From: a virus
IMG/VR virus record: IMGVR_UViG_3300031963_007040
Location: 1-24,744 of that record
Reading direction: 5' to 3' (one strand)
DNA length: 24,744 bases
A program made the translations under genes and the position numbers. Numbering within the stretch: the stretch's first letter is position 1; every line of letters begins with the position of its first letter. The notes beneath the pieces are model-generated. The model made no database searches. It was given only the letters and a program-made list of their open reading frames with translations, and had not been told where the DNA came from. Below are positions 14,894 through 24,744 of this stretch, piece by piece.

Positions 14894-15597
14894 GCGGCTA
14901 CATGAGCGGATTGCTCAACGGCAAGCCTTGCTGGAGTCCGTCGGCACGTACTCGGGAATACGAGTTTGGCCCGGCTGCGACAAACGAAACGGAGAACCAG
15001 GCAATACTGCGCGAGGCTGCGCAGCTGGTAGCCGACGCCGTCCGGCGGGGACTGGCACGTCGGGCAGATGAGCCCACGCTGACCGAGGCGCAGGCCGGTG
15101 CCATCCTGGACAAGGCGGCGTCTGGTGGATTGTTTCGGCGGCGTGCACCGCGCCAGACTAAGTTCTGTGCGTGCGGTGAACTAATGGGGCGCAGGGCGCT
15201 TAAATGCACCGCGTGCTGGGACCGCGAGCGTCAGCCGCGCATCCGGGCACCAAAGCCGCACAAGGTCCGGTTTTGCGGATGCGGCGTGCAACTGCCGACG
15301 GCATGGAGTCAGCGCTGCATTGATTGCCGAAGGCCCATGAAGCCTTGCACAGCCTGCGGGACAATTTTTAGACCAAACGAGAAAAAGGCTAAAGCATGCT
15401 CCCGGGAATGCCTACAGACTCTGCTGTCTCAGGCGCAGCTGGCGCGCGTCAAAACGACGGTCAAAATCCCGTGCATGGTCTGCGGCATTGAGTTTGCCAA
15501 CTATCGCAAGGGCAAAGGCCCGCGCAAAACGTGCAGCATGGAGTGCAAGCGCAAGGTCGCACAGTTGAACGCAAAAAACTTTAAGGCTAAAAAATGA
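14890..15597 (+). CDS. Protein with four zinc ribbons
   Basis: 235 residues from ATG 14890, supported by GGAGG at 14879-14883. After a helical N-terminal third there are four Cys quartets: C93/C95 with C106/C109; C129/C131 with C143/C146; C153/C156 with C170/C174; C195/C198 with C215/C219. The last two have the form CxxC...CSxEC, typical of small treble-clef or HNH-associated ribbons. The linkers are very basic. It probably binds nucleic acid or RNA polymerase; it precedes the helicase-methylase gene with a 4-base overlap. Confidence 0.65.
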   Translation: MSGYMSGLLNGKPCWSPSARTREYEFGPAATNETENQAILREAAQLVADAVRRGLARRADEPTLTEAQAGAILDKAASGGLFRRRAPRQTKFCACGELMGRRALKCTACWDRERQPRIRAPKPHKVRFCGCGVQLPTAWSQRCIDCRRPMKPCTACGTIFRPNEKKAKACSRECLQTLLSQAQLARVKTTVKIPCMVCGIEFANYRKGKGPRKTCSMECKRKVAQLNAKNFKAKK

Positions 15598-17783
15598 CTT
15601 ACGACGAATACATCACAGGAAAGCAAAAGACCGTGCGGGATGCCGGTTTTGAGCCTTTGCCGATCATTGCGCCGCTTTTTGACTGGCAAGCGCACATCGT
15701 GCGTTGGGCGGTTAGGAAAGGGCGTTGCGCACTGTTTGAGGACTGCGGACTTGGCAAGACTGCCCAGCAGCTCGAATGGGCGAGCCAGGTAGTGCAGCAC
15801 ACTGGCGGCAGCGTGCTTATCCTGACTCCTCTTGCGGTGGCATCTCAAACAGCTAGGGAGGCGCAGAAGTTTGGCATCGAAGCAAAACAGATCGCGAGCG
15901 GTGACGAAATTACCGCACCAGGAGTTTGGATCACAAACTACGAGAAGCTAGAGCATTTTGATTGCTCAGTGTTTGCCGGGGTAGTTTTGGACGAGAGTAG
16001 TATTCTCAAATCCTTCACAGGAAAAACGAGAAAAGCACTGACATATGCCTTTTCGCAGACACCGTACAGGCTCGCATGTACCGCGACACCGTCACCGAAC
16101 GACTACACTGAACTCGGGCAGCACGCTGAGTTTCTTGGCATCTGCTCGCTTGCTCAGATGCTTGCGACGTTCTTTGTGAACGACACGTTTAACACTGGCG
16201 ACTGGAGGCTTAAAAAGCACGCTGAAAGCGAGTTTTGGAAGTGGCTGGCAAGTTGGGCCGCGTGCGTTTCAAAGCCGTCTGATATTGGATTTGAAAACGA
16301 TGGGTACGATCTGCCATCACTCAACATGCAAACGATTCTAGTGGACGCTGACATCAGCACAGACACCGGGGACGACTTGTTTCGCATTGCCACGCTATCC
16401 GCGACGACGATGCACAGGGAAATGCGCATGACATCGGCAGACCGATCCGATGCTGTCGCAAATCTAGTGAACGGATCAGATGAACCTTGGATTGTGTGGT
16501 GTAACACAAACGACGAAGCAGACAATCTTGCCCAGCGAATCCCGGATGCGATTGAAGTGCGTGGCTCGGATGCGCCATCCCGCAAAGAGTCTTTGCTGTC
16601 CGATTTCAGCCAAGGACGGGCTCGCGTCATTATCACAAAGCCAAGCATTGCTGGGTTTGGGCTCAACTGGCAGCACTGCCGCAACGTGGCGTTTGTGGGG
16701 CTCTCCTACTCGTTTGAGGACTTTTACCAAGCTTTAAGGCGGTCTTACAGGTTTGGGCAAACGCAAGAGGTGAACGCCTACATCGTGCAGGCAAAGACGG
16801 AAGGAGCCATCCTTCAATCAATCAGACGCAAAATTGAGCAACATAAGAAAATGCAAGAGAACATGAAACTAGCAGCAGCAGAAATGACTTTTCAGAAGTC
16901 CGAGACAGTGGAAGCGGAAACCGGAGTGGAAACGTACACCGGGAACAACTGGACAGTGCATCACGGTGACTGTGTCCGAGTGGCAAAAACGATCCCGACT
17001 GGCTCAATTGACTTTTCAGTTTTCAGTCCGCCGTTTGCTGACTTGTTTACTTACTCAAACGATCCGCAAGACATGGGAAACTGTGACTCAATGGCAGACT
17101 TTATGGTGCACTTTGATTTTCTGATCCAGGAGTTCAAACGGATCATGCAACCTGGGCGCGAAGTCGCGGTGCATTGCGTGGACCTTCTTTCGACAAAATG
17201 GAAACACGGCGCAATCCAGTTCCAAGACTTTAGCGGGGAGATCATCCGAGCCTTCTGGAAGCATGACTTCCTGTTTCACTCTCGCATCTGCATCTGGAAG
17301 AGTCCGGTAACAGAGATGCAGCGCACCAAAGCGCACGGGCTACTCCACAAAACGCTGAAAACCGATTCATCCAGTTCGCGAGTTGGTTGCGCTGATTACT
17401 TACTCGTGTTTCGCGCTCCGGGGGAAACGGTGGTGCCAGTGACAAAGGACGGATCAGAGTTTCCAGTTTCTTGGTGGCAGGAGGTAGCGTCTCCAGTCTG
17501 GATGACAGTTGACCAAGGGCGAGTGTTAAACGGCGAAGTGGCACGCGACCAAGCCGACGAAAAACACATTTGCCCGCTTCAGCTTGACGTGATCGAACGC
17601 GCCATCACGCTTTGGAGTAACCCGGGCGACTTAGTTTACTCGCCGTTTACGGGCATCGGTTCCGAAGGGTACGGCGCTTTGACCCTTGGCAGGCGTTTTG
17701 TCGGGTCTGAACTTAAAAAGTCCTACGCAGAACACGCCGTTACGAACCTGCGCAACATTGAAGCTCAACCCAGCCTATTCTAA
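15594..17783 (+). CDS. Superfamily 2 helicase fused to a DNA N4/N6 methyltransferase
   Basis: 729 residues. The first 440 residues are an SNF2-like helicase: FDWQ (Q32), Walker A EDCGLGKT (49-56), Walker B VVLDESS (D133, E134), motif III ACTATPSP (161-168), and motif VI QALRRSYRFGQ (379-389). The last 280 residues are a beta-class methyltransferase with motif IV SPPF (478-481) and motif I SPFTGIGSEG (683-692), permuted as in PF01555 enzymes. Such fusions occur in phages and probably methylate phage DNA, perhaps protecting it from restriction. No nuclease domain is evident. It overlaps both neighbours by 1 to 4 bases. Confidence 0.85.
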   Translation: MTYDEYITGKQKTVRDAGFEPLPIIAPLFDWQAHIVRWAVRKGRCALFEDCGLGKTAQQLEWASQVVQHTGGSVLILTPLAVASQTAREAQKFGIEAKQIASGDEITAPGVWITNYEKLEHFDCSVFAGVVLDESSILKSFTGKTRKALTYAFSQTPYRLACTATPSPNDYTELGQHAEFLGICSLAQMLATFFVNDTFNTGDWRLKKHAESEFWKWLASWAACVSKPSDIGFENDGYDLPSLNMQTILVDADISTDTGDDLFRIATLSATTMHREMRMTSADRSDAVANLVNGSDEPWIVWCNTNDEADNLAQRIPDAIEVRGSDAPSRKESLLSDFSQGRARVIITKPSIAGFGLNWQHCRNVAFVGLSYSFEDFYQALRRSYRFGQTQEVNAYIVQAKTEGAILQSIRRKIEQHKKMQENMKLAAAEMTFQKSETVEAETGVETYTGNNWTVHHGDCVRVAKTIPTGSIDFSVFSPPFADLFTYSNDPQDMGNCDSMADFMVHFDFLIQEFKRIMQPGREVAVHCVDLLSTKWKHGAIQFQDFSGEIIRAFWKHDFLFHSRICIWKSPVTEMQRTKAHGLLHKTLKTDSSSSRVGCADYLLVFRAPGETVVPVTKDGSEFPVSWWQEVASPVWMTVDQGRVLNGEVARDQADEKHICPLQLDVIERAITLWSNPGDLVYSPFTGIGSEGYGALTLGRRFVGSELKKSYAEHAVTNLRNIEAQPSLF

Positions 17784-18772
17784 TGAACATCCGACATTCC
17801 TCACTCCCAAAACTGGCCCTGTGCGGCCAGTACCAAGGCGCTTCTGGCACGTCCGAGGCCGCCGCACGCGGCACTATGCTGGACCGTGTTTTCCGCGACG
17901 CCTGGACGACCGGCGAGCTGCCGCGTGACCTTAACGACGAGGACACAGCAGCAGTGCAATGGGCCATCAACAAGTGCATCCTGCTCAACGGCGGCGCTGA
18001 CCGGCTGACGACCGACGAGGCCGACTGCAAGGTCCGCACAATCGGACTTGACCACGAGGGCACCGCTGATGGCGTGGCAGTGCGCGGGCAGTGGTCAATC
18101 GACCTCAAGAGCGGGCAGGTGTACGACTACGCCGCACAGATGGCAGCCTACGCACTGGGGCTGATGCAGACGCACTTTGTGGGGTACTGGACGACGCATT
18201 TGCTGTTTTGCGATCAGAAGCAGGTTGTCAGTCACCGCTGGAGTTACCAAGAAGCGCACGACCTAGTGCACAGCGTGCTTGCCAACGTGGGCACCGCGCC
18301 GGTTGAAAACGAGTACTGCGGCTGGTGTGCAAAAAGCCTGACCTGTCCTGCGAGAGTTGCCAGCAAAGACAGCGCGCTGGTGACCGTTGCCGGGCTCGCG
18401 CCGACAGTCCAGGACGAGGGATTTCTGGCACTGCTCAATGACCCAGACCGGCTCGGGCAATTCTTGGCAGCGTGCCAGACGCTGGACGACTTCCGAGACG
18501 CTGCCAAGGAGAAGGCACGCGGATTGCTTGAAGCTGGCGTGAAGGTGCCAGGCTGGAGACTGCAAAAGCCGCGTGCAAGCGAGTACATCGAGGCCGAACA
18601 TATCGCGCAGGCAGTGCGAAACGGTGCAATCGGTGCCGGTGACGCGATTCTAGCGCAAGGCTCGATCAGCCTTAAAAAGGCGCAATCTCTTTGGAGTGCA
18701 GCCGGTGCAGTGCTGCCGGATGAGATTGTGCAGCGAAAGATTGGGCAGGCTCCACTTGTGGCATCAAAATGA
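17783..18772 (+). CDS. PD-(D/E)XK exonuclease (Cas4/DUF2800-like)
   Basis: 329 residues. The nuclease core shows GTADGV (D96), SIDLKSG (D107, K109) and the following YAAQMAAYALGLM helix, the order D...(D/E)xK...Q of PD-(D/E)XK enzymes such as lambda-exonuclease-like and DUF2800 proteins. A Cys cluster at C179, C182 and C188 (YCGWCAKSLTC) may coordinate zinc or an iron-sulfur cluster. Adjacent RuvC-like, RecT-like and SSB-like genes suggest a role in resecting DNA ends for recombination. Confidence 0.7.
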   Translation: MNIRHSSLPKLALCGQYQGASGTSEAAARGTMLDRVFRDAWTTGELPRDLNDEDTAAVQWAINKCILLNGGADRLTTDEADCKVRTIGLDHEGTADGVAVRGQWSIDLKSGQVYDYAAQMAAYALGLMQTHFVGYWTTHLLFCDQKQVVSHRWSYQEAHDLVHSVLANVGTAPVENEYCGWCAKSLTCPARVASKDSALVTVAGLAPTVQDEGFLALLNDPDRLGQFLAACQTLDDFRDAAKEKARGLLEAGVKVPGWRLQKPRASEYIEAEHIAQAVRNGAIGAGDAILAQGSISLKKAQSLWSAAGAVLPDEIVQRKIGQAPLVASK

Positions 18773-19245
18773 GCACTCAAAACTACATCGCCATCGACCC
18801 AGGCGTGGGCGGCGGCATTGCCTACACCGACACCGACGGCAGCGTGCATGCACTGCCGATGCCGGAGACGCTGCATGACCTCGACACGCAGTTTCAAATC
18901 CTTGTCACGCGAACCACTGGGCCGTTTTTTCCAACTTCTATCGTGTTTTTGGAGGAACTCCCGAAGTTTGCAGGCAAAATGAGCGGCTCAAGCATGGCTA
19001 CCATGTTCCGCAACTACGGAAGAATCGAGGGCATCCTTGCCGCCTACGGTGCTCGGATTGAGTATCTGCCGCCCAAAAAGTGGCAACAGGCTCTTGGGCT
19101 CGGTGACAAGAAAACGCACGGGGACCGCTGGAAAGCTCATCTCAAAGGCCGTGCTCAGGCGCTATATCCGCAACTCACAGTGACGCTCAAGACCGCCGAC
19201 GCACTGTTAATTTTAGAGGCGGGAATGAAACTAAAGAACAAATGA
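18769..19245 (+). CDS. RuvC-like Holliday junction resolvase
   Basis: 158 residues. The RNase H fold motifs are visible: YIAIDPGVGGGIA (D10), VFLEELPKF (E62/E63), and TADALLILEAG (D144). Spacing and length match phage RuvC-type resolvases, which cut four-way junctions with two metal ions. The typical His before the last Asp is not obvious, with Lys or Thr in its place. It overlaps both neighbours by four bases in the recombination block. Confidence 0.8.
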   Translation: MSTQNYIAIDPGVGGGIAYTDTDGSVHALPMPETLHDLDTQFQILVTRTTGPFFPTSIVFLEELPKFAGKMSGSSMATMFRNYGRIEGILAAYGARIEYLPPKKWQQALGLGDKKTHGDRWKAHLKGRAQALYPQLTVTLKTADALLILEAGMKLKNK

Positions 19246-19976
19246 ACCTGATACCATTCGATCAAACCAAACTGATGGCCGAGGCCATCGCAAAATCCAA
19301 ACTCTTTGGCATCCAGACCGCCGAGCAGGCTCTTGCGCTGGGCTTGCTATGCCAAGCTGAAGGACGCCACCCGGCCGAAGCCGCCCGCGATTACCACATC
19401 ATCGGGGGCAAGCCGTCGCTTAAGTCCGAGGCCATGCTGGCACGGTTCCAGCAAGCCGGGGGCCGCGTGGAGTGGCACGAGTACACGCACGAGGCAGTCT
19501 CGGGCACCTTTACGCACCCGCAGGGCGGCAGCCTCAAAGTATCCTGGACAATTAAGGACGCCGAGCGGGCCGGGCTGACTAGCAACCCGACCTGGCGCAA
19601 GTTTCCGAGGCAGATGCTCAAGGCTAGGTGCATTTCCGAAGCAGTCCGGGGAATCTTTCCCGGGGTACTGTCAGGACTTTACGCACCCGAGGAGGTCCAA
19701 GAGTTTGCGCCGGTGCAGGTGCAAACGGAACCGGAACCTGTACAGGTCGAAGCTGAGCCTGTAGAGTTACCAGTCCCGCCAATGCTCGAACGAATTCATC
19801 CCATGCAGCGCTTGCTGGCCGACAAGTCAGCGGCGCAGCGTGAAAAAGTCACGCAAGGGGCCATCAAACGGGGCTGGATTAAAGCAGAGGGACAGACATA
19901 CCTCGACATCCCGGGGGACATTATCACGCAGGCAGTAGCATTCCCTGAGCGGTTTTTCAGCGCCTTCGGTATCTAA
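19242..19976 (+). CDS. RecT-like single-strand annealing protein
   Basis: 244 residues. Conserved-looking blocks are QAEGRHPAEAARDYHIIGGK, LKSEAMLARFQQAGG, SGTFTHPQGGSLKVSWT, NPTWRKFPRQMLKARCISE, and GVLSGLYAPEEVQ. These resemble a phage recombination protein group often annotated as RecT-like. The linker (about 160-185) is Glu/Pro/Val-rich. Proteins of this type anneal complementary single strands. Assignment rests on pattern memory plus neighbours (nuclease upstream, SSB downstream). Confidence 0.6.
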   Translation: MNLIPFDQTKLMAEAIAKSKLFGIQTAEQALALGLLCQAEGRHPAEAARDYHIIGGKPSLKSEAMLARFQQAGGRVEWHEYTHEAVSGTFTHPQGGSLKVSWTIKDAERAGLTSNPTWRKFPRQMLKARCISEAVRGIFPGVLSGLYAPEEVQEFAPVQVQTEPEPVQVEAEPVELPVPPMLERIHPMQRLLADKSAAQREKVTQGAIKRGWIKAEGQTYLDIPGDIITQAVAFPERFFSAFGI

Positions 19977-19985
19977 AAACACACT

Positions 19986-20390
19986 ATGCCATCACTCAAA
20001 ATTGAACCCAACCAACAGCAAACCAGCATCGAAGCTGGGGTGCACCTCGCGAAAATCGAGCACGCTATCGAGGCTGTTTCAAAGGCCGGAAACGAAATGC
20101 TGCAGCTTGAATGCAAAGTGGGACCGCTGACGTTCCGCGCCTACATCGTGTTTACGGCGAAGAACAGCCGCAACGTGGCTGAGTTTGCGACGGCTATCGG
20201 AAAGCGCGTTGTGGAAGGCAAAACGCTTGTCATCGAAACCGAGGACTGCATTGGTAAGATTGCCAAGGTTGAACTCGGGCCCGGTGACCGGATCAGCGAC
20301 AAGACCGGAAAGCCGTACCTCGAAATCAAGCGCTGGCTGCCGCCTAGCGTTGCTGATGATGACCTGATGCCAGACGAAATCCCGTTCTAA
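19986..20390 (+). CDS. Single-stranded DNA-binding-like protein
   Basis: 134 residues with OB-fold-like strands (HLAKIEHAIEAVSKAGNEML, GPLTFRAYIVFT, CIGKIAKVELGPGD) and an acidic C terminus DDDLMPDEIPF. The final acidic-Ile-Pro-Phe tip matches the SSB tail that recruits partner proteins. The family may be DUF669-like rather than classical SSB. It lies next to the annealing protein and helicase genes, as expected for a replication cassette. The leader AAAACACACT has no Shine-Dalgarno site. Confidence 0.7.
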   Translation: MPSLKIEPNQQQTSIEAGVHLAKIEHAIEAVSKAGNEMLQLECKVGPLTFRAYIVFTAKNSRNVAEFATAIGKRVVEGKTLVIETEDCIGKIAKVELGPGDRISDKTGKPYLEIKRWLPPSVADDDLMPDEIPF

Positions 20391-20434
20391 TGACCGTTTT
20401 GGGGGCCGCGCATCCAACTAACGCGGGAACACCA

Positions 20435-20650
20435 ATGAACAAAACTGAACTGACAGAAGCGGAGCGAATTGCGGATGAATTGATGAAGACTCACACGGCA
20501 CTGGTTAATTCTGGGCAGCCTGGACTGCATCCGCTGGCAACTGACACTTATAAGCTCGCAAAGGCGATCCGACTTTTTAGTGCCAAAGCAGAGCCGGAGA
20601 TTGTGTCCGACCTAGTCCGAGCACAAAGACGACACGAGGCAGCGCTTTAA
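20435..20650 (+). CDS. Small helical hypothetical protein
   Basis: 71 residues from ATG 20435. An earlier in-frame ATG at 20390 overlaps the upstream stop but would add 15 residues of unlikely composition (TVLGAAHPTNAGTP). GGGAA lies 9 bases upstream of 20435. The protein is helical (ELTEAERIADELMKTHTAL, then LATDTYKLAKAIRLF) and ends RAQRRHEAAL. No family is recognised; it sits between the SSB-like and helicase genes. Confidence 0.5.
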   Translation: MNKTELTEAERIADELMKTHTALVNSGQPGLHPLATDTYKLAKAIRLFSAKAEPEIVSDLVRAQRRHEAAL

Positions 20651-20653
20651 GGC

Positions 20654-21982
20654 ATGAGCGCACAAAACATCCCGCAGGCTGAACAAGCCGAGCGGGCGGT
20701 GCTGGGCTGTCTACTTTTTGCCCCTCACACCGCACTCCCATCGGTGACAGTTTCGGGGCTGACCGCTGCGGACTTTTACAACCCGACGTTTGCCAAAATC
20801 TTCAGCGGCATCCAAGCGACCGCTGATGCCGGGGAAAGCCTCAACCCGATCGGGCTTGCGACAAAACTTGCGCACCAGGGCGTCGCGTTTGCAATCATTT
20901 CGGAACTCTCCACCGGGATGCCAAGCCTTGAGCCGCTCCCGAGCTGGTGCGGACTGGTGCTGGACGCATCAAGGCGGCGCAGGTTGCTGCAACAACTGAT
21001 TGAGGCGGCAAAAGCGCTAAGCGATGGGCTGCCGACTGGCGACGTCGTGGCCGGGCTAGGCGACGCTGTGACGGTTGCCAGTGCCGAGCAAGGGCTGGGT
21101 TCTATAGTACAAACGGCGTTCAATGACCTCCTGACCTATGATACGGAGTGCGATAGAAACAACCTGATTGGCAACCGGTGGCTGTGCAAGGGCGGCTCGC
21201 TTCTTATCAACGCTCAAAGCGGCATCGGGAAAAGCTCTCTGACGATGCAGCTTGCCATCGGTTGGGCATTGCACGGAAAAGGACATTTTGCAGGCGCTTT
21301 GACGTTTGCAATTACACCAGTTCGACCGCTCAAAAGCCTAATTTTACAAGCCGAAAACGATATCGGAGATCAAGCGGAAATCTTGCAATCTGTGATTTGC
21401 AAATACGGGAAAAACGAATGCGGCGAGTCTGAAAAACAAGCATTAAACGAGCGGTTGGTTTTTTATCGGGATAACGTACACAGCGGGCCGGAGTTTTTAA
21501 GGGTGCTCGAAGCGCTTATCGTTAAGCACAAACCTGACGTTGCGTGGATTGATCCTTTAATGTGCTATCTCGGCGACGATATTTCTGACCAAAAAGTGGT
21601 TACCGAGTTTTGCAATGGGCTAAACCGAATCAGTAGCAAAACCGGAGTCTTGTTGGTGCTGATACATCACCTGCCAAAACCACGGGAGGGCACCGCACGA
21701 ACCGATTCGGACTTGGCTTATGCCGGATTCGGCTCATCCGCGCTTACAAACTGGGCCCGTGAGGTGGTGACTCTACAGAGAGTCGAGACTGAGCCAGGAC
21801 AGCCGCCGACGTGCTCGCTGACGGCAACCAAGCGCAGGCTGAGGGCTGGCATGAGCACCTGGGAGGGGCAACCAAGCGCAAGAATATACATTCGGCACAG
21901 TCCCAACCCAGAGAAGCACGGCATGATTTGGCAGCAATGCCCGCAGCCGGAACCGCCGGAAGAACCCAAAAAACGCAAATGA
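20654..21982 (+). CDS. Replicative DNA helicase (DnaB N-domain plus RepA-like ATPase)
   Basis: 442 residues. The N-terminal domain starts NIPQAEQAERAVLGCLLF, the DnaB N-terminal signature. The ATPase has Walker A NAQSGIGKSS (186-195, K193), Walker B VAWIDPLM (D300) and a following LIHHLPKP (H338, H339), as in KaiC/RepA-like hexameric helicases. It probably unwinds the replication fork. The C terminus is Pro/Lys-rich and overlaps the initiator-like gene by four bases, suggesting joint expression. Confidence 0.82.
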   Translation: MSAQNIPQAEQAERAVLGCLLFAPHTALPSVTVSGLTAADFYNPTFAKIFSGIQATADAGESLNPIGLATKLAHQGVAFAIISELSTGMPSLEPLPSWCGLVLDASRRRRLLQQLIEAAKALSDGLPTGDVVAGLGDAVTVASAEQGLGSIVQTAFNDLLTYDTECDRNNLIGNRWLCKGGSLLINAQSGIGKSSLTMQLAIGWALHGKGHFAGALTFAITPVRPLKSLILQAENDIGDQAEILQSVICKYGKNECGESEKQALNERLVFYRDNVHSGPEFLRVLEALIVKHKPDVAWIDPLMCYLGDDISDQKVVTEFCNGLNRISSKTGVLLVLIHHLPKPREGTARTDSDLAYAGFGSSALTNWAREVVTLQRVETEPGQPPTCSLTATKRRLRAGMSTWEGQPSARIYIRHSPNPEKHGMIWQQCPQPEPPEEPKKRK

Positions 21983-22638
21983 AACCACGATCCGAGAACC
22001 CAAAAGACGAGGGCCCTTTTGCTTGGCAGACCCGCGAAGCTGCTATTGAAGCTGGCAAACTAGGCATCAATGCCTACGCGATTTATTGCGCTTTGACGCA
22101 CTTTCAAAGCGCTGCCGGAACCGATCAAAAAAGGCGTTTTCCGGCGTCCTACGAGCAGCTCGCCGAGCATGTGGGATGCTCTCGCGGGACGGTCAAAACG
22201 GCACTCGATGCGCTTGAAAAATCGGAGTTAATCCGCAAGTTTTCCGGGTCAAATGGAGGCCACCGAGCGACCCGAAACGCCTTTTTTTTGACCTCAATTA
22301 GCAGTACACCACATGGACGCGGCAGTACACCACGTGAACGGCACGTGAGTACACCACATGGACGCGACGTGAGTACACAGTTTGGACGCAAGAAGAGAAC
22401 AGAGAACAAATTTACAGCGGGGCCTCAAGTCCCCGCGTGTAAATTAGAGAAGGAAGAAACTGAGCCCGCTCGCTCGCGCTTAAGGCGCGGCAGCGGCTCA
22501 AAAGAACCGCACCCGGACATCTCCCATTTGCCGGAACGAGATCAGCAGTACATTCGGCACATGTGGGCTCAGGCTGAGGAGACCGATCGAATCATCGCCG
22601 AACAACAGGCCGCCGAAAGTTTTGAAAATTTTTCCTAA
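21979..22638 (+). CDS. Winged-helix replication initiator-like protein
   Basis: 219 residues from ATG 21979. Residues 11-100 form a winged helix of the HTH_36 type: YAIYCALTHFQSA, SYEQLAEHVGCSRGTVKTAL, LEKSELIRKF. Then comes a repeat STPHGRG / STPRERHV / STPHGRDV / STQFGRK, encoded by the iterons, followed by a charged helical C terminus (LPERDQQYIRHMWAQAEE). Its overlap with the helicase gene and the iterons inside it match lambda O/P-type loci, where the initiator binds its own gene. DNA binding by this protein is inferred. Confidence 0.68.
   Translation: MKPRSENPKDEGPFAWQTREAAIEAGKLGINAYAIYCALTHFQSAAGTDQKRRFPASYEQLAEHVGCSRGTVKTALDALEKSELIRKFSGSNGGHRATRNAFFLTSISSTPHGRGSTPRERHVSTPHGRDVSTQFGRKKRTENKFTAGPQVPACKLEKEETEPARSRLRRGSGSKEPHPDISHLPERDQQYIRHMWAQAEETDRIIAEQQAAESFENFS
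22303..22390 (+). repeat. Four iterons inside the initiator-like gene (candidate origin)
   Basis: AGTACACCACATGGACGCG occurs exactly at 22303-22321 and 22348-22366; AGTACACCACGTGAACGGC at 22324-22342 and AGTACACAGTTTGGACGCA at 22372-22390 are variants. Start spacings are 21, 24 and 24 bases, close to two helical turns. CACGTG or ACGTG accompanies the spacers. A T8 run (22282-22289) lies just upstream. Four tandem iterons in the initiator gene resemble lambda ori. A protein-repeat explanation remains possible since spacings are multiples of three. Confidence 0.7.
22409..22445. repeat. 14-bp inverted repeat next to the iterons
   Basis: AATTTACAGCGGGG (22409-22422) pairs with CCCCGC (22431-22436) and TGTAAATT (22438-22445); only G22437 is unpaired and the loop is CCTCAAGT. 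Between it and the last iteron is a purine-rich, G+A stretch (22391-22408). Iterons, an easily melted stretch and a palindrome follow the same order as in the lambda origin. In RNA it would also form a strong hairpin. Confidence 0.65.
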
Positions 22639-22669
22639 ACCGACAACACAACCCAACCGATACCCAACC

Positions 22670-23002
22670 ATGATTCCTGACCTTGTGAACGAAATCGAAC
22701 GTCTCCGCGACGAGGCTGCCATGCTGGCAACCAAGCCGTGTTTGGAATGCGAAACCGTAGTGCCTGGACTGCAGTCCCGGCTGGAGGACCAGAAGCAAAC
22801 CATCCGCACGTTACGAAACCTGCTCCAGCGCGCCGACAACGCACTGGGTGCAGTCCCGTACCACGTCGCCGGAGTGCAATCGCAAGACCCCATCGGCCAC
22901 ATGATGGCCCTCGAAGTCTGGGACAATTACGCAATTATCCTGTCTGACCTCAGACGAGACATCCGCAAACTCCTCACAGGCGAACAGAATGCCGGTTTCT
23001 GA
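22670..23002 (+). CDS. Coiled-coil hypothetical protein
   Basis: 110 residues from ATG 22670. An in-frame TTG at 22622 is less likely because the intervening 32 bases form a typical A/C-rich leader (ACCCAACCGATACCCAACC). The protein begins IPDLVNEIERLRDEAAML, has a C-x2-C pair (CLECETV) near residue 24, and continues with a long amphipathic helix. A Phe ends the protein. No family is recognised. Confidence 0.55.
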   Translation: MIPDLVNEIERLRDEAAMLATKPCLECETVVPGLQSRLEDQKQTIRTLRNLLQRADNALGAVPYHVAGVQSQDPIGHMMALEVWDNYAIILSDLRRDIRKLLTGEQNAGF

Positions 23003-23222
23003 TGCCGTGTATATGCAAACCAGTATGACCACAGCGGACTGGCCTAGAAAGCGGGCTTATTTGGTGAGCGCAGACTACCAGCCGTTCCGTTGGTGGATGG
23101 TTGACGCCGAGGGTGAATGTGACGCACGGCATCAGATTGCTGACCGATTCGGCATCGCACTGGAGGAGTTGGAGGCGAAGCTGGCGAATGCTGAAGAGAT
23201 AAAGCGGAGTAACGTTGTATGA
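22989..23222 (+). CDS. Small hypothetical protein
   Basis: 77 residues, overlapping the end of the previous gene by 14 bases and the next start by four. The core is YLVSADYQPFRWWMVDAEG followed by a helical C terminus IADRFGIALEELEAKLANA. Internal ATGs at 23013 and 23034 are alternative starts because the first 15 residues look unstructured. No family is recognised. Confidence 0.55.
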   Translation: MPVSDAVYMQTSMTTADWPRKRAYLVSADYQPFRWWMVDAEGECDARHQIADRFGIALEELEAKLANAEEIKRSNVV

Positions 23223-23542
23223 CTGACGAACAAATCAACGCGGCGATTGCGAAGAAGTGTGGGTGGACGGAGATTAGAGACAATGTCGTTGGCAAAGCGC
23301 CGGGCGAAACAGGTTACAGGGTAATGTTTTTGCCAAAATACTCAACGAGCCTCAACGCGATGCATGAGGCTGAAAAGGTGCTGACTGAAGACCGCAACTC
23401 ATACCTCACTACGCTTGCCGGTTTGGTCGAAACGGATCATCTGCGCGGATTAGATGCAGACTGGCCGTGGGTGTGCGCTACAGCTCGCCAACGTGCAGAG
23501 GCTTTTCTTAAGACGCTAGGCAAATGGGAGGAAAAGAAATGA
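23219..23542 (+). CDS. Phage ABA-sandwich-like protein
   Basis: 107 residues. NAAIAKKCGWTEIR near the N terminus and LPKYSTSLNAMHEAEKVL in the middle match a phage family with the pattern AIAe..GW...YStdlnAA (Phage_ABA_S type). The C terminus VCATARQRAEAFLKTLGKW is typical too. These small proteins are common in early regions and their role is unknown. Confidence 0.7.
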   Translation: MTDEQINAAIAKKCGWTEIRDNVVGKAPGETGYRVMFLPKYSTSLNAMHEAEKVLTEDRNSYLTTLAGLVETDHLRGLDADWPWVCATARQRAEAFLKTLGKWEEKK

Positions 23543-23766
23543 GCACAGATCCAAACCACGTTAGAATGATTAACGATGCGCGATGCGATTGCGGCGATCC
23601 TTGTATTCTTAATTCCGATTTGGACGAGGCAGAGGCGCGAATTGAAAAGCTGGAAACTGCACTCAAACGCATTTCAGACAGCCAATTTTCGCAAAGTGGA
23701 TCTGCTATTGATCGCATGGACGCAGTGCGCGCAATAGCACGAGAGGCACTGGAACCAAATCGGTGA
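23539..23766 (+). CDS. Small Cys-containing coiled-coil protein
   Basis: 75 residues from ATG 23539, preceded by GGGAGG (23526-23531), one of the best Shine-Dalgarno sites in the window. An N-terminal CDCGDPC cluster may bind metal, followed by a long helix DLDEAEARIEKLETALKRI. No family is recognised. It overlaps the end of the previous gene by four bases. Confidence 0.55.
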   Translation: MSTDPNHVRMINDARCDCGDPCILNSDLDEAEARIEKLETALKRISDSQFSQSGSAIDRMDAVRAIAREALEPNR

Positions 23767-23781
23767 ACCCAACGAAATGGT

Positions 23782-23970
23782 ATGAGCATCAAACCTGTTG
23801 AACGAATTGAACTGACCCTCGCCATCGAAACCGCTATGGCTGCGCTGGAAGAGACGACCAGGCAGTTGAGACTAGCGCACAGGCGCATTGCTGCACTTGA
23901 AACGCAGATGCGTAGGGAAGGCTGGACTGAAGCTGACCTTGACGAGGTGCAGCCTGCTGTGCATCACTGA
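23782..23970 (+). CDS. Short helical hypothetical protein
   Basis: 62 residues, one long helix (RIELTLAIETAMAALEETT, RQLRLAHRRIAALETQM) ending with WTEADLDEVQPAVHH. The heptad spacing of Leu and Ala suggests a coiled coil. It begins 15 bases after the preceding stop. It resembles no named family, and the end overlaps a Cys-rich ORF in another frame. Confidence 0.5.
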   Translation: MSIKPVERIELTLAIETAMAALEETTRQLRLAHRRIAALETQMRREGWTEADLDEVQPAVHH

Positions 23971-24340
23971 GTGCGACAGAGCTTGCCAAGGCGTGAGCCT
24001 CAAACCGGCGAGCCATTACTTCCGCGACACCTGCGGGGCTGACCAGTTGGCCCAAAAGTGGAGTGACAGCAGGAGAGACTGCACGCTTTGCGACACCTGC
24101 GCACGGACCGGGGATATTCCAGTCGATGAGTGGTGTGACAACCTGAGAGTAGGCAGGTCAGCGGCTGACATGAGAGCCGTGGTGAACGCACACCGCAAGA
24201 GGCGTGACATCCGGGAGAGACCGGCGCACATTCCCAGTAGCTCAGTTGGTAGAGCAGCGCTCCCTCAAGGCCAAGGGCCAAAACGCCGGGATCAAGCGCG
24301 GGCCGTGAGGTTCGAGTCCTCACCTGGGAGCTGTTTTTGA
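23939..24340 (+). CDS. Possible Cys-rich protein running into the tRNA-like element
   Basis: The frame is open from before 23939 to the TGA at 24338-24340. TTG 23939 is the suggested start and GTG 23993 is another; neither has a good ribosome site. Residues with clear coding character are CITECDRACQG, RDCTLCDTCARTGD and WCDNLRVGRSAADMRAVV, suggesting a metal-binding protein. The last 35 residues are encoded by the tRNA-like sequence and look like a non-coding translation. A real gene may end elsewhere or the ORF may be spurious. Confidence 0.35.
   Translation: MTRCSLLCITECDRACQGVSLKPASHYFRDTCGADQLAQKWSDSRRDCTLCDTCARTGDIPVDEWCDNLRVGRSAADMRAVVNAHRKRRDIRERPAHIPSSSVGRAALPQGQGPKRRDQARAVRFESSPGSCF
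24231..24330 (+). tRNA. tRNA-like element with an enlarged anticodon loop
   Basis: TAGCTCAGTTGGTAGAGC (24238-24255) is a complete D-arm, and TGAGG TTCGAGT CCTCA (24306-24322) a complete T-arm. The acceptor pairs TTCCCAG (24231-24237) with CTGGGAG (24324-24330), one G-U. The anticodon stem GCGCT (24257-24261) / AGCGC (24295-24299) is perfect, but the loop between them is 33 bases (24262-24294) instead of 7. No anticodon can be assigned and CCA is not encoded. It may be a pseudogene, an interrupted tRNA, or a tRNA mimic. Confidence 0.55.
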
Positions 24341-24342
24341 AA

Positions 24343-24678
24343 ATGACCGAACCAGACTATTCCGCAGGGATTGAAGACCTCCTCGACTTTGGCCTAACGC
24401 ACGACCAGGCCGAGGACGTCTGGCGTTGGTACGTCAAAGGCTGCCGAGCGCACGGGCAGACCTCAGGAGGCGTGGCAATCGTGCGGATTTTAAGTTGGCT
24501 GCTGGACGCCACAGCACGCAGCAACATGCGCCTGCGCATTGTGGGCATGGCGTTTGGCACTGGGCTTGGGCACCTGACAGGATACGAGGATATGAGCCAG
24601 GCAGCGGCGGCACTAGGGGTATCGCACCAGGCTGTTGAATACGCCGCCAAGCAGGCTAGCAAGGCCATGCTGGGGTAA
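24343..24678 (+). CDS. Helix-turn-helix protein, possible packaging or late regulator
   Basis: 111 residues from ATG 24343 (TTG at 24337 is an alternative). The C terminus contains DMSQAAAALGVSHQAVEYA, a helix-turn-helix of the sigma region 4 or small-terminase type. The N-terminal half is helical with GLTHDQAEDVWRWYV. Being just before the presumed packaging genes, it might be a small terminase-like or regulatory protein, but the small-terminase fold cannot be confirmed. It starts 12 bases after the tRNA-like element. Confidence 0.55.
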   Translation: MTEPDYSAGIEDLLDFGLTHDQAEDVWRWYVKGCRAHGQTSGGVAIVRILSWLLDATARSNMRLRIVGMAFGTGLGHLTGYEDMSQAAAALGVSHQAVEYAAKQASKAMLG

Positions 24679-24744
24679 GGGTATCTGCCACCCCCCATAA
24701 GAAGTCTCCTACAGAGGGTTTTCGTCGGGGTGAGGTTGATGACG
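24679..24744 (+). other. Right edge, possible start of the next gene
   Basis: 66 bases after the last stop. GGGGT (24672-24676) can pair with ACCCC a few bases downstream, a weak stem without a U-tract. GGGGTGAGG followed by ATG at 24739 could be the ribosome site and start of another gene (a GTG at 24730 is also in frame), but only two codons are inside the window. Confidence 0.3.

Follow-up and report, generated by a model that had tools for sequence, protein, structure and literature searches.

The window analysed here is the whole of a 24,744-bp linear virus record of IMG/VR (IMGVR_UViG_3300031963_007040) from an uncultured phage, in which a DnaB-like helicase gene is followed by an initiator gene whose start overlaps the helicase stop by 4 nt (Table 1). 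The domains of the helicase were recognized by Pfam (PF00772, E 8.8e-11; PF13481, E 3.6e-18), and its PHROG was likewise DnaB-like helicase. The initiator matched HTH_36 (PF13730, E 3.2e-7, 30.5 bits against a cut-off of 25; Pfam) as well as phrog_270 ('replication initiation protein', 4.2e-12), phrog_391 (1.1e-6), and phrog_678 (1.2e-6), part of this replication-initiation signal being that of a generic HTH. A winged helix was also seen in an AlphaFold model, whose quality is modest (pLDDT 62.5, pTM 0.41) and in which the iteron-encoded repeat region is predicted to be disordered. Foldseek returned the initiator structures 4pql, 4pt7, and 5kbj, which we take to be of the pSK41 type, among its top matches, all of them weak, and a sequence search of the PDB with the initiator yielded nothing meaningful. 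Neither tblastn with the initiator nor megablast with positions 15000-24744 of the window found a match in annotated phages, and no relatives were found when genome contigs were scanned with the family alignment. The homologue set comprised 40 distinct loci, namely the window and 39 IMG/VR loci, all of the homologues being uncultured contigs. In seven of these (L007, L008, L013, L014, L022, L063, and L067), an extra small gene of ~181-183 aa (MNYTKIGALxTHRYI...) was observed between the helicase and the initiator.

Table 1. Features of the window (coordinates in the 24,744-bp record)
Feature	Coordinates	Strand	Description
729-aa protein	15594..17783		Fuses SNF2-type helicase and N6/N4 DNA methylase
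DnaB-like helicase gene	20654..21982	+	442 aa; DnaB N-terminal domain and AAA_25
Initiator gene	21979..22638	+	219 codons, 219-aa winged-helix protein; holds the origin elements
Recognition helix region	22177..22224	+	Residues 67-82, CSRGTVKTALDALEKS; class A
T8 tract	22282..22289	+	Just 5' of the array; codons TTT TTT TTG in most homologues (codon tables)
Iteron 1	22304..22318	+	GTACA-CCACA-TGGAC
Iteron 2	22325..22339	+	GTACA-CCACG-TGAAC
Iteron 3	22349..22363	+	GTACA-CCACA-TGGAC
Iteron 4	22373..22387	+	GTACA-CAGTT-TGGAC
Purine-rich tract	22390..22408	+	17/19 purine; candidate unwinding region or spacer
Hairpin (inverted repeat)	22409..22445	+	14 pairs, one bulged base, 8-nt loop
tRNA-like gene	24232..24329	+	~98 nt, including a long extra segment; RF00005 31.9 bits, cut-off 29 (Rfam); missed by ARAGORN

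The iterons, the purine-rich stretch, and the 14-bp inverted repeat of the original prediction were all located, in the order and place that it had given, with the iterons followed by the purine-rich tract (a region of ~20 nt at 59% AT) and then the hairpin, all after the winged helix. The four iterons are in frame at spacings of 21, 24, and 24 bp and form the top-scoring tandem repeat of the whole window. The predicted spacing of 21-24 bases thus held, while the 19-base unit was refined to a 15-bp palindrome of two arms around a 5-bp spacer, which had gone unremarked earlier; the weakest copy is iteron 4, which encodes STQFGR. The motif GTNCANNNNNTGNAC occurred five times in the window against 0.41 expected, four of the five occurrences being inside the array. 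GC skew across the 24.7-kb linear fragment showed no clear switch at the array.

The STPHGR-type peptide repeat encoded by the iterons is real, and the iterons are in frame in every homologue. Together with the flexible, basic character of the repeat region, this would fit a reading in which the repeat peptide (STPHGR etc.) was selected and the DNA repeats arose as its by-product, but the palindromy lies far above the synonymous null. When the window array was recoded synonymously in 20,000 draws, self-identity was 0.58 +/- 0.04 (0.83 observed) and the palindrome pairs numbered 7.4 +/- 1.6 (16 of 20 observed), with 0 of the 20,000 draws reaching the observed value of either. Across 38 loci (two loci with three or five iterons were left out of the pairing count), arm pairing was 16.2 of 20 at the register centre compared with 2.7-7.7 when the centre was shifted by -6 to +13 bp, and synonymous recoding for the same peptide left 8.2, 10.5, and 9.9 paired arm positions in the classes A, B, and C described below. 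Moreover, AGTnCA-N5-TGnAC was invariant in the 64 class-A iterons, wobble positions included, even though 18 different hexapeptides are encoded, and the hexapeptides of other classes (NAPQAR, KPSQGH, RSPQDL, and RDCESQ) are unrelated. Given also the predicted disorder of the region and the iterons of lambda, which do not share one frame, selection of the peptide is barely credible as the source of the repeats. The constraint evidently acts on the DNA, not on the peptide: relatives in which the peptide was kept while synonymous changes broke the DNA repeats were looked for, and the opposite was seen, with invariant arms and a varying peptide. The earlier suggestion of a possible double use of the DNA segment probably misleads, since the encoded peptide seems to arise as a by-product of iteron spacing at 21/24 bp and lies in a region of predicted disorder. 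Iteron number varies among the homologues (five in L014 and three in L065), always with the frame kept.

Six classes of recognition helix, each with its own iteron arms, were distinguished among the homologues. Class A combines the helix SRGTV[KN] with the arms GTnCA-N5-TGnAC, class B SQRTVCR with ACGCC-N5-GGCGT/C, class C [SA]KNTV[AS]R with A(A)CCC-N5-GGGT, class D SRGTVRI with GGTCA-N5-(T/A)GACC, class E SRATVAR with GT(A/C)TC-N5-GATAC, and class F STKT[IV]QR with (G/A)GGAC-N5-GTCC. Helix class and iteron class agreed in 40 of 40 loci, and no class-A sites were found in fetched family loci of other classes. Single degenerate iteron copies do exist, for example iteron 3 of L019 and iteron 4 of several class-C arrays. 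In class C, the position of the T8 tract is mostly occupied by TTTTGTTTG, and the class-C homologue L006 scored 21.4 bits to PF13730, under the cut-off of 25.

Residues 69, 70, 73, and 77 of the initiator carried 0.81-0.95 of the class information, compared with a mean of 0.16 and a maximum of 0.48 for the variable columns of the helicase. On the helicase tree, for which a quick search was used and SH-aLRT was the sole measure of support, 19 class changes were counted versus 20.1 with shuffled labels; class is thus random with respect to the helicase gene while helix and iterons stay together, moving as a cassette. Two comparisons illustrate this pattern. The helicases of the window (class A) and of L006 (class C) share 97% identity, and the nucleotide identity between L010 and L015 is 92% in the N-terminus, 58% in the helix, 81% in the following stretch (wing), 61% in the iterons, 100% in the tract and hairpin, and 95% in the C-terminus. 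Physical linkage contributes to the co-inheritance of helix and iterons, since only about 80-210 bp separate them, and residues 67-137 tend to be exchanged as a block, with the wing partly following class (residue 87). The two sets of classes might accordingly be correlated merely through one short recombination tract in one gene, with no need to match. This explanation is very improbable in view of the absence of mismatched combinations despite at least 19 class changes, the far weaker class association of the intervening residues 96-107 (0.09, versus 0.40 for the helix and 0.61 for the iterons), and the recovery of other initiators by a motif search with DNA alone (see below). By all indications, iteron class is linked to the recognition helix and not to the background.

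The stem of the hairpin was present in every homologue, ~19 nt past iteron 4, with a few nucleotides more or less in some and a greater distance in L014. Within its outer 8 bp, 97.5% of cells were paired and compensatory changes were found at all eight pairs (20 sequences), whereas pairing fell to 36-45% when the partner was slid by one column. The sequence type of the hairpin was independent of iteron class, and the hairpin therefore seems to be kept for its shape rather than for a class-specific contact. A role as an intrinsic terminator was considered and set aside, as no T run follows the hairpin.

In addition, all viral contigs were searched for pairs of class-A iterons at a distance of 24 bp, using no protein information, and 47 contigs were recovered. 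Outside the family, 14 of the 18 non-redundant ORFs holding such arrays matched replication-initiation PHROGs, mostly O-like, and the iterons were in frame in nearly all of these initiator ORFs. In a control search with the class-B motif, the 23 matches listed included a single identified initiator, L126; this motif is GC-rich, and the extra matches look like chance occurrences in GC-rich contigs. The class-C motif was rejected for scanning the collection, being too degenerate and producing many apparent chance matches. In-frame palindromic iterons with the same 5-bp spacer were observed in unrelated phage initiators (L076-L121 and several of L159-L198), where the peptide repeats are, for example, SPKNG, SSESE, and ENPIGV. 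In-gene origins of the palindrome-N5 geometry look widespread on the basis of these searches, and a 5-bp-spacer palindrome repeated at 24 bp within an HTH gene provides a DNA-only signature for such origins in unrelated phages.

Palindromic iterons, constraint at the DNA level, co-switching of helix and iterons, and covariation in the hairpin are all directly apparent in the sequences. Very probably, the initiator gene of this uncultured tailed phage contains the theta-type replication origin of the phage, and the initiator very likely binds its iterons. Palindromic dimer sites would fit any dimeric HTH regulator, and near-matches of the protein to MarR, Crp, and Rrf2 were reported by Pfam; the array could accordingly be a set of autoregulatory operators through which the winged-helix protein represses or times its own operon, with replication starting elsewhere. 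The sites, however, lie 325-410 bp within the coding region, and class-A sites outside the arrays are almost absent from the fetched family loci (one in L008; position 17169 of the window has a looser match). An operator function is further made improbable by a layout equal to that of lambdoid origins, by PHROG matches to replication initiators, and by the adjoining helicase gene. The lambda-O-like reading put forward in the original prediction is backed by the homologues, by lambdoid controls handled identically, and by the DNA-only motif search.

Dimer binding, unwinding, helicase recruitment, and the start of replication at the array are predicted steps of such an origin. The winged-helix N-terminal domain would bind each palindromic iteron as a dimer, whose two recognition helices would each read one GTnCA half-site on either side of the 5-bp spacer, and four dimers on the phased 21/24/24-bp array could form an O-some-like complex. 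This complex would destabilize the adjoining DNA, namely the purine tract and the AT-rich outer stem of the hairpin, and the conserved C-terminal part of the initiator would then recruit the phage DnaB-like helicase encoded just upstream.

As for why specificity switches, we tentatively suggest that origin specificity might behave as an incompatibility or immunity type, with the helix and iteron cassette exchanged so frequently as to be random with respect to the helicase gene, and rare types presumably escaping origin decoys, resident prophages, and origin-targeting defences. Plasmids with ori-lambda iterons and oop transcription are inhibitory to rep-lambda phages but spare rep-P22 phages (PMC3349717), and the growth of lambda is prevented by ectopic origins (PMC4488673). 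Hypothetically, rare types could therefore be favoured by prophages, plasmids, satellites, or defences that exploit or target a given type of origin. If this is true, the six classes would represent a natural code by which a winged-helix protein recognizes DNA. With six helix and palindrome pairs on one scaffold, swaps of helices or iterons can be used to test how DNA-binding specificity and origin incompatibility evolve.

Among known systems, the locus resembles lambda ori in gene O, gene 18 of P22, and the O genes of HK544 and other lambdoids: the origin is within the initiator gene, N5 palindromic iterons recur every 20-24 bp, and a purine- or AT-rich tract and then an inverted repeat come after them. 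A scan identical to that of the family gave TCCCTC-N5-GAGGGA for lambda, TTTACC-N5-GGTAAA for P22, GTCACC-N5-GGTGAC for SEN22, and TTAGCC-N5-GGCTAA for HK544, followed by a tract of 75-82% AT and, in most, by a hairpin. It has long been known that iteron sequences differ between lambdoid phages and that the specificity of O differs to match. Some lambdoid O genes also encode peptide repeats, because a 24-bp spacing yields them automatically. In HK544 and SEN22, a helicase or primase/helicase gene adjoins O, just as the helicase adjoins the initiator here. The tract of the present locus, in contrast, is shorter and less AT-rich (~20 nt at 59% AT, versus ~40 nt in lambdoids), its iterons share one reading frame, unlike those of lambda, and the helicase gene lies upstream of the initiator, also unlike lambda; no lambda P-type loader was seen beside the initiator. 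Furthermore, PF04492 (Phage_rep_O) matched six lambdoid O controls at 1e-33 to 1e-38 but none of three family members (P0001, which is the window protein, L006, and L063), and a profile comparison with Phage_rep_O aligned only 31 HTH columns at 27% probability, as for a generic HTH. The PF13730 match and the absence of a PF04492 match agree with the predicted winged-helix type other than that of lambda O. Judged from its organization, the origin probably works like lambda ori, with a protein of the PF13730 type that falls outside Phage_rep_O.

In-gene binding sites are also found in the plasmid pSK41 (RepA_N), in which Rep boxes located centrally in rep are bound by the N-terminal winged helix and the central region is a dispensable linker, and a ~500-bp swap brought into pPR9 both its origin and the N-terminal domain of its Rep, a PF13730 domain of phage type (PMC5703833). 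The present locus shares with pSK41 and pPR9 the in-gene sites, the PF13730 domain (pPR9), and the joint exchange of DNA-binding domain and origin, while differing in belonging to a phage rather than a plasmid, in its shorter specificity unit, and in its covarying hairpin; RepA_N (PF06970) was not matched by the initiator up to E 0.1 in Pfam. In the PLE satellites of Vibrio cholerae, the DNA-binding domain of RepA covaries with the iterons and the two are exchanged as modules, and cognate pairs are required for replication (PMC8263062). The PLE origin is intergenic, of RepA_N type, and with two specificity groups reported, whereas the present origin lies within the gene and has six classes, which diverge mainly in the recognition helix and the iterons. 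In summary, in-gene origins and replicon module swapping are already known from lambdoid phages, pSK41/pPR9, and PLE RepA, and what is new here is the six-way helix-iteron series, the small size of the divergent segments, and the covarying hairpin.
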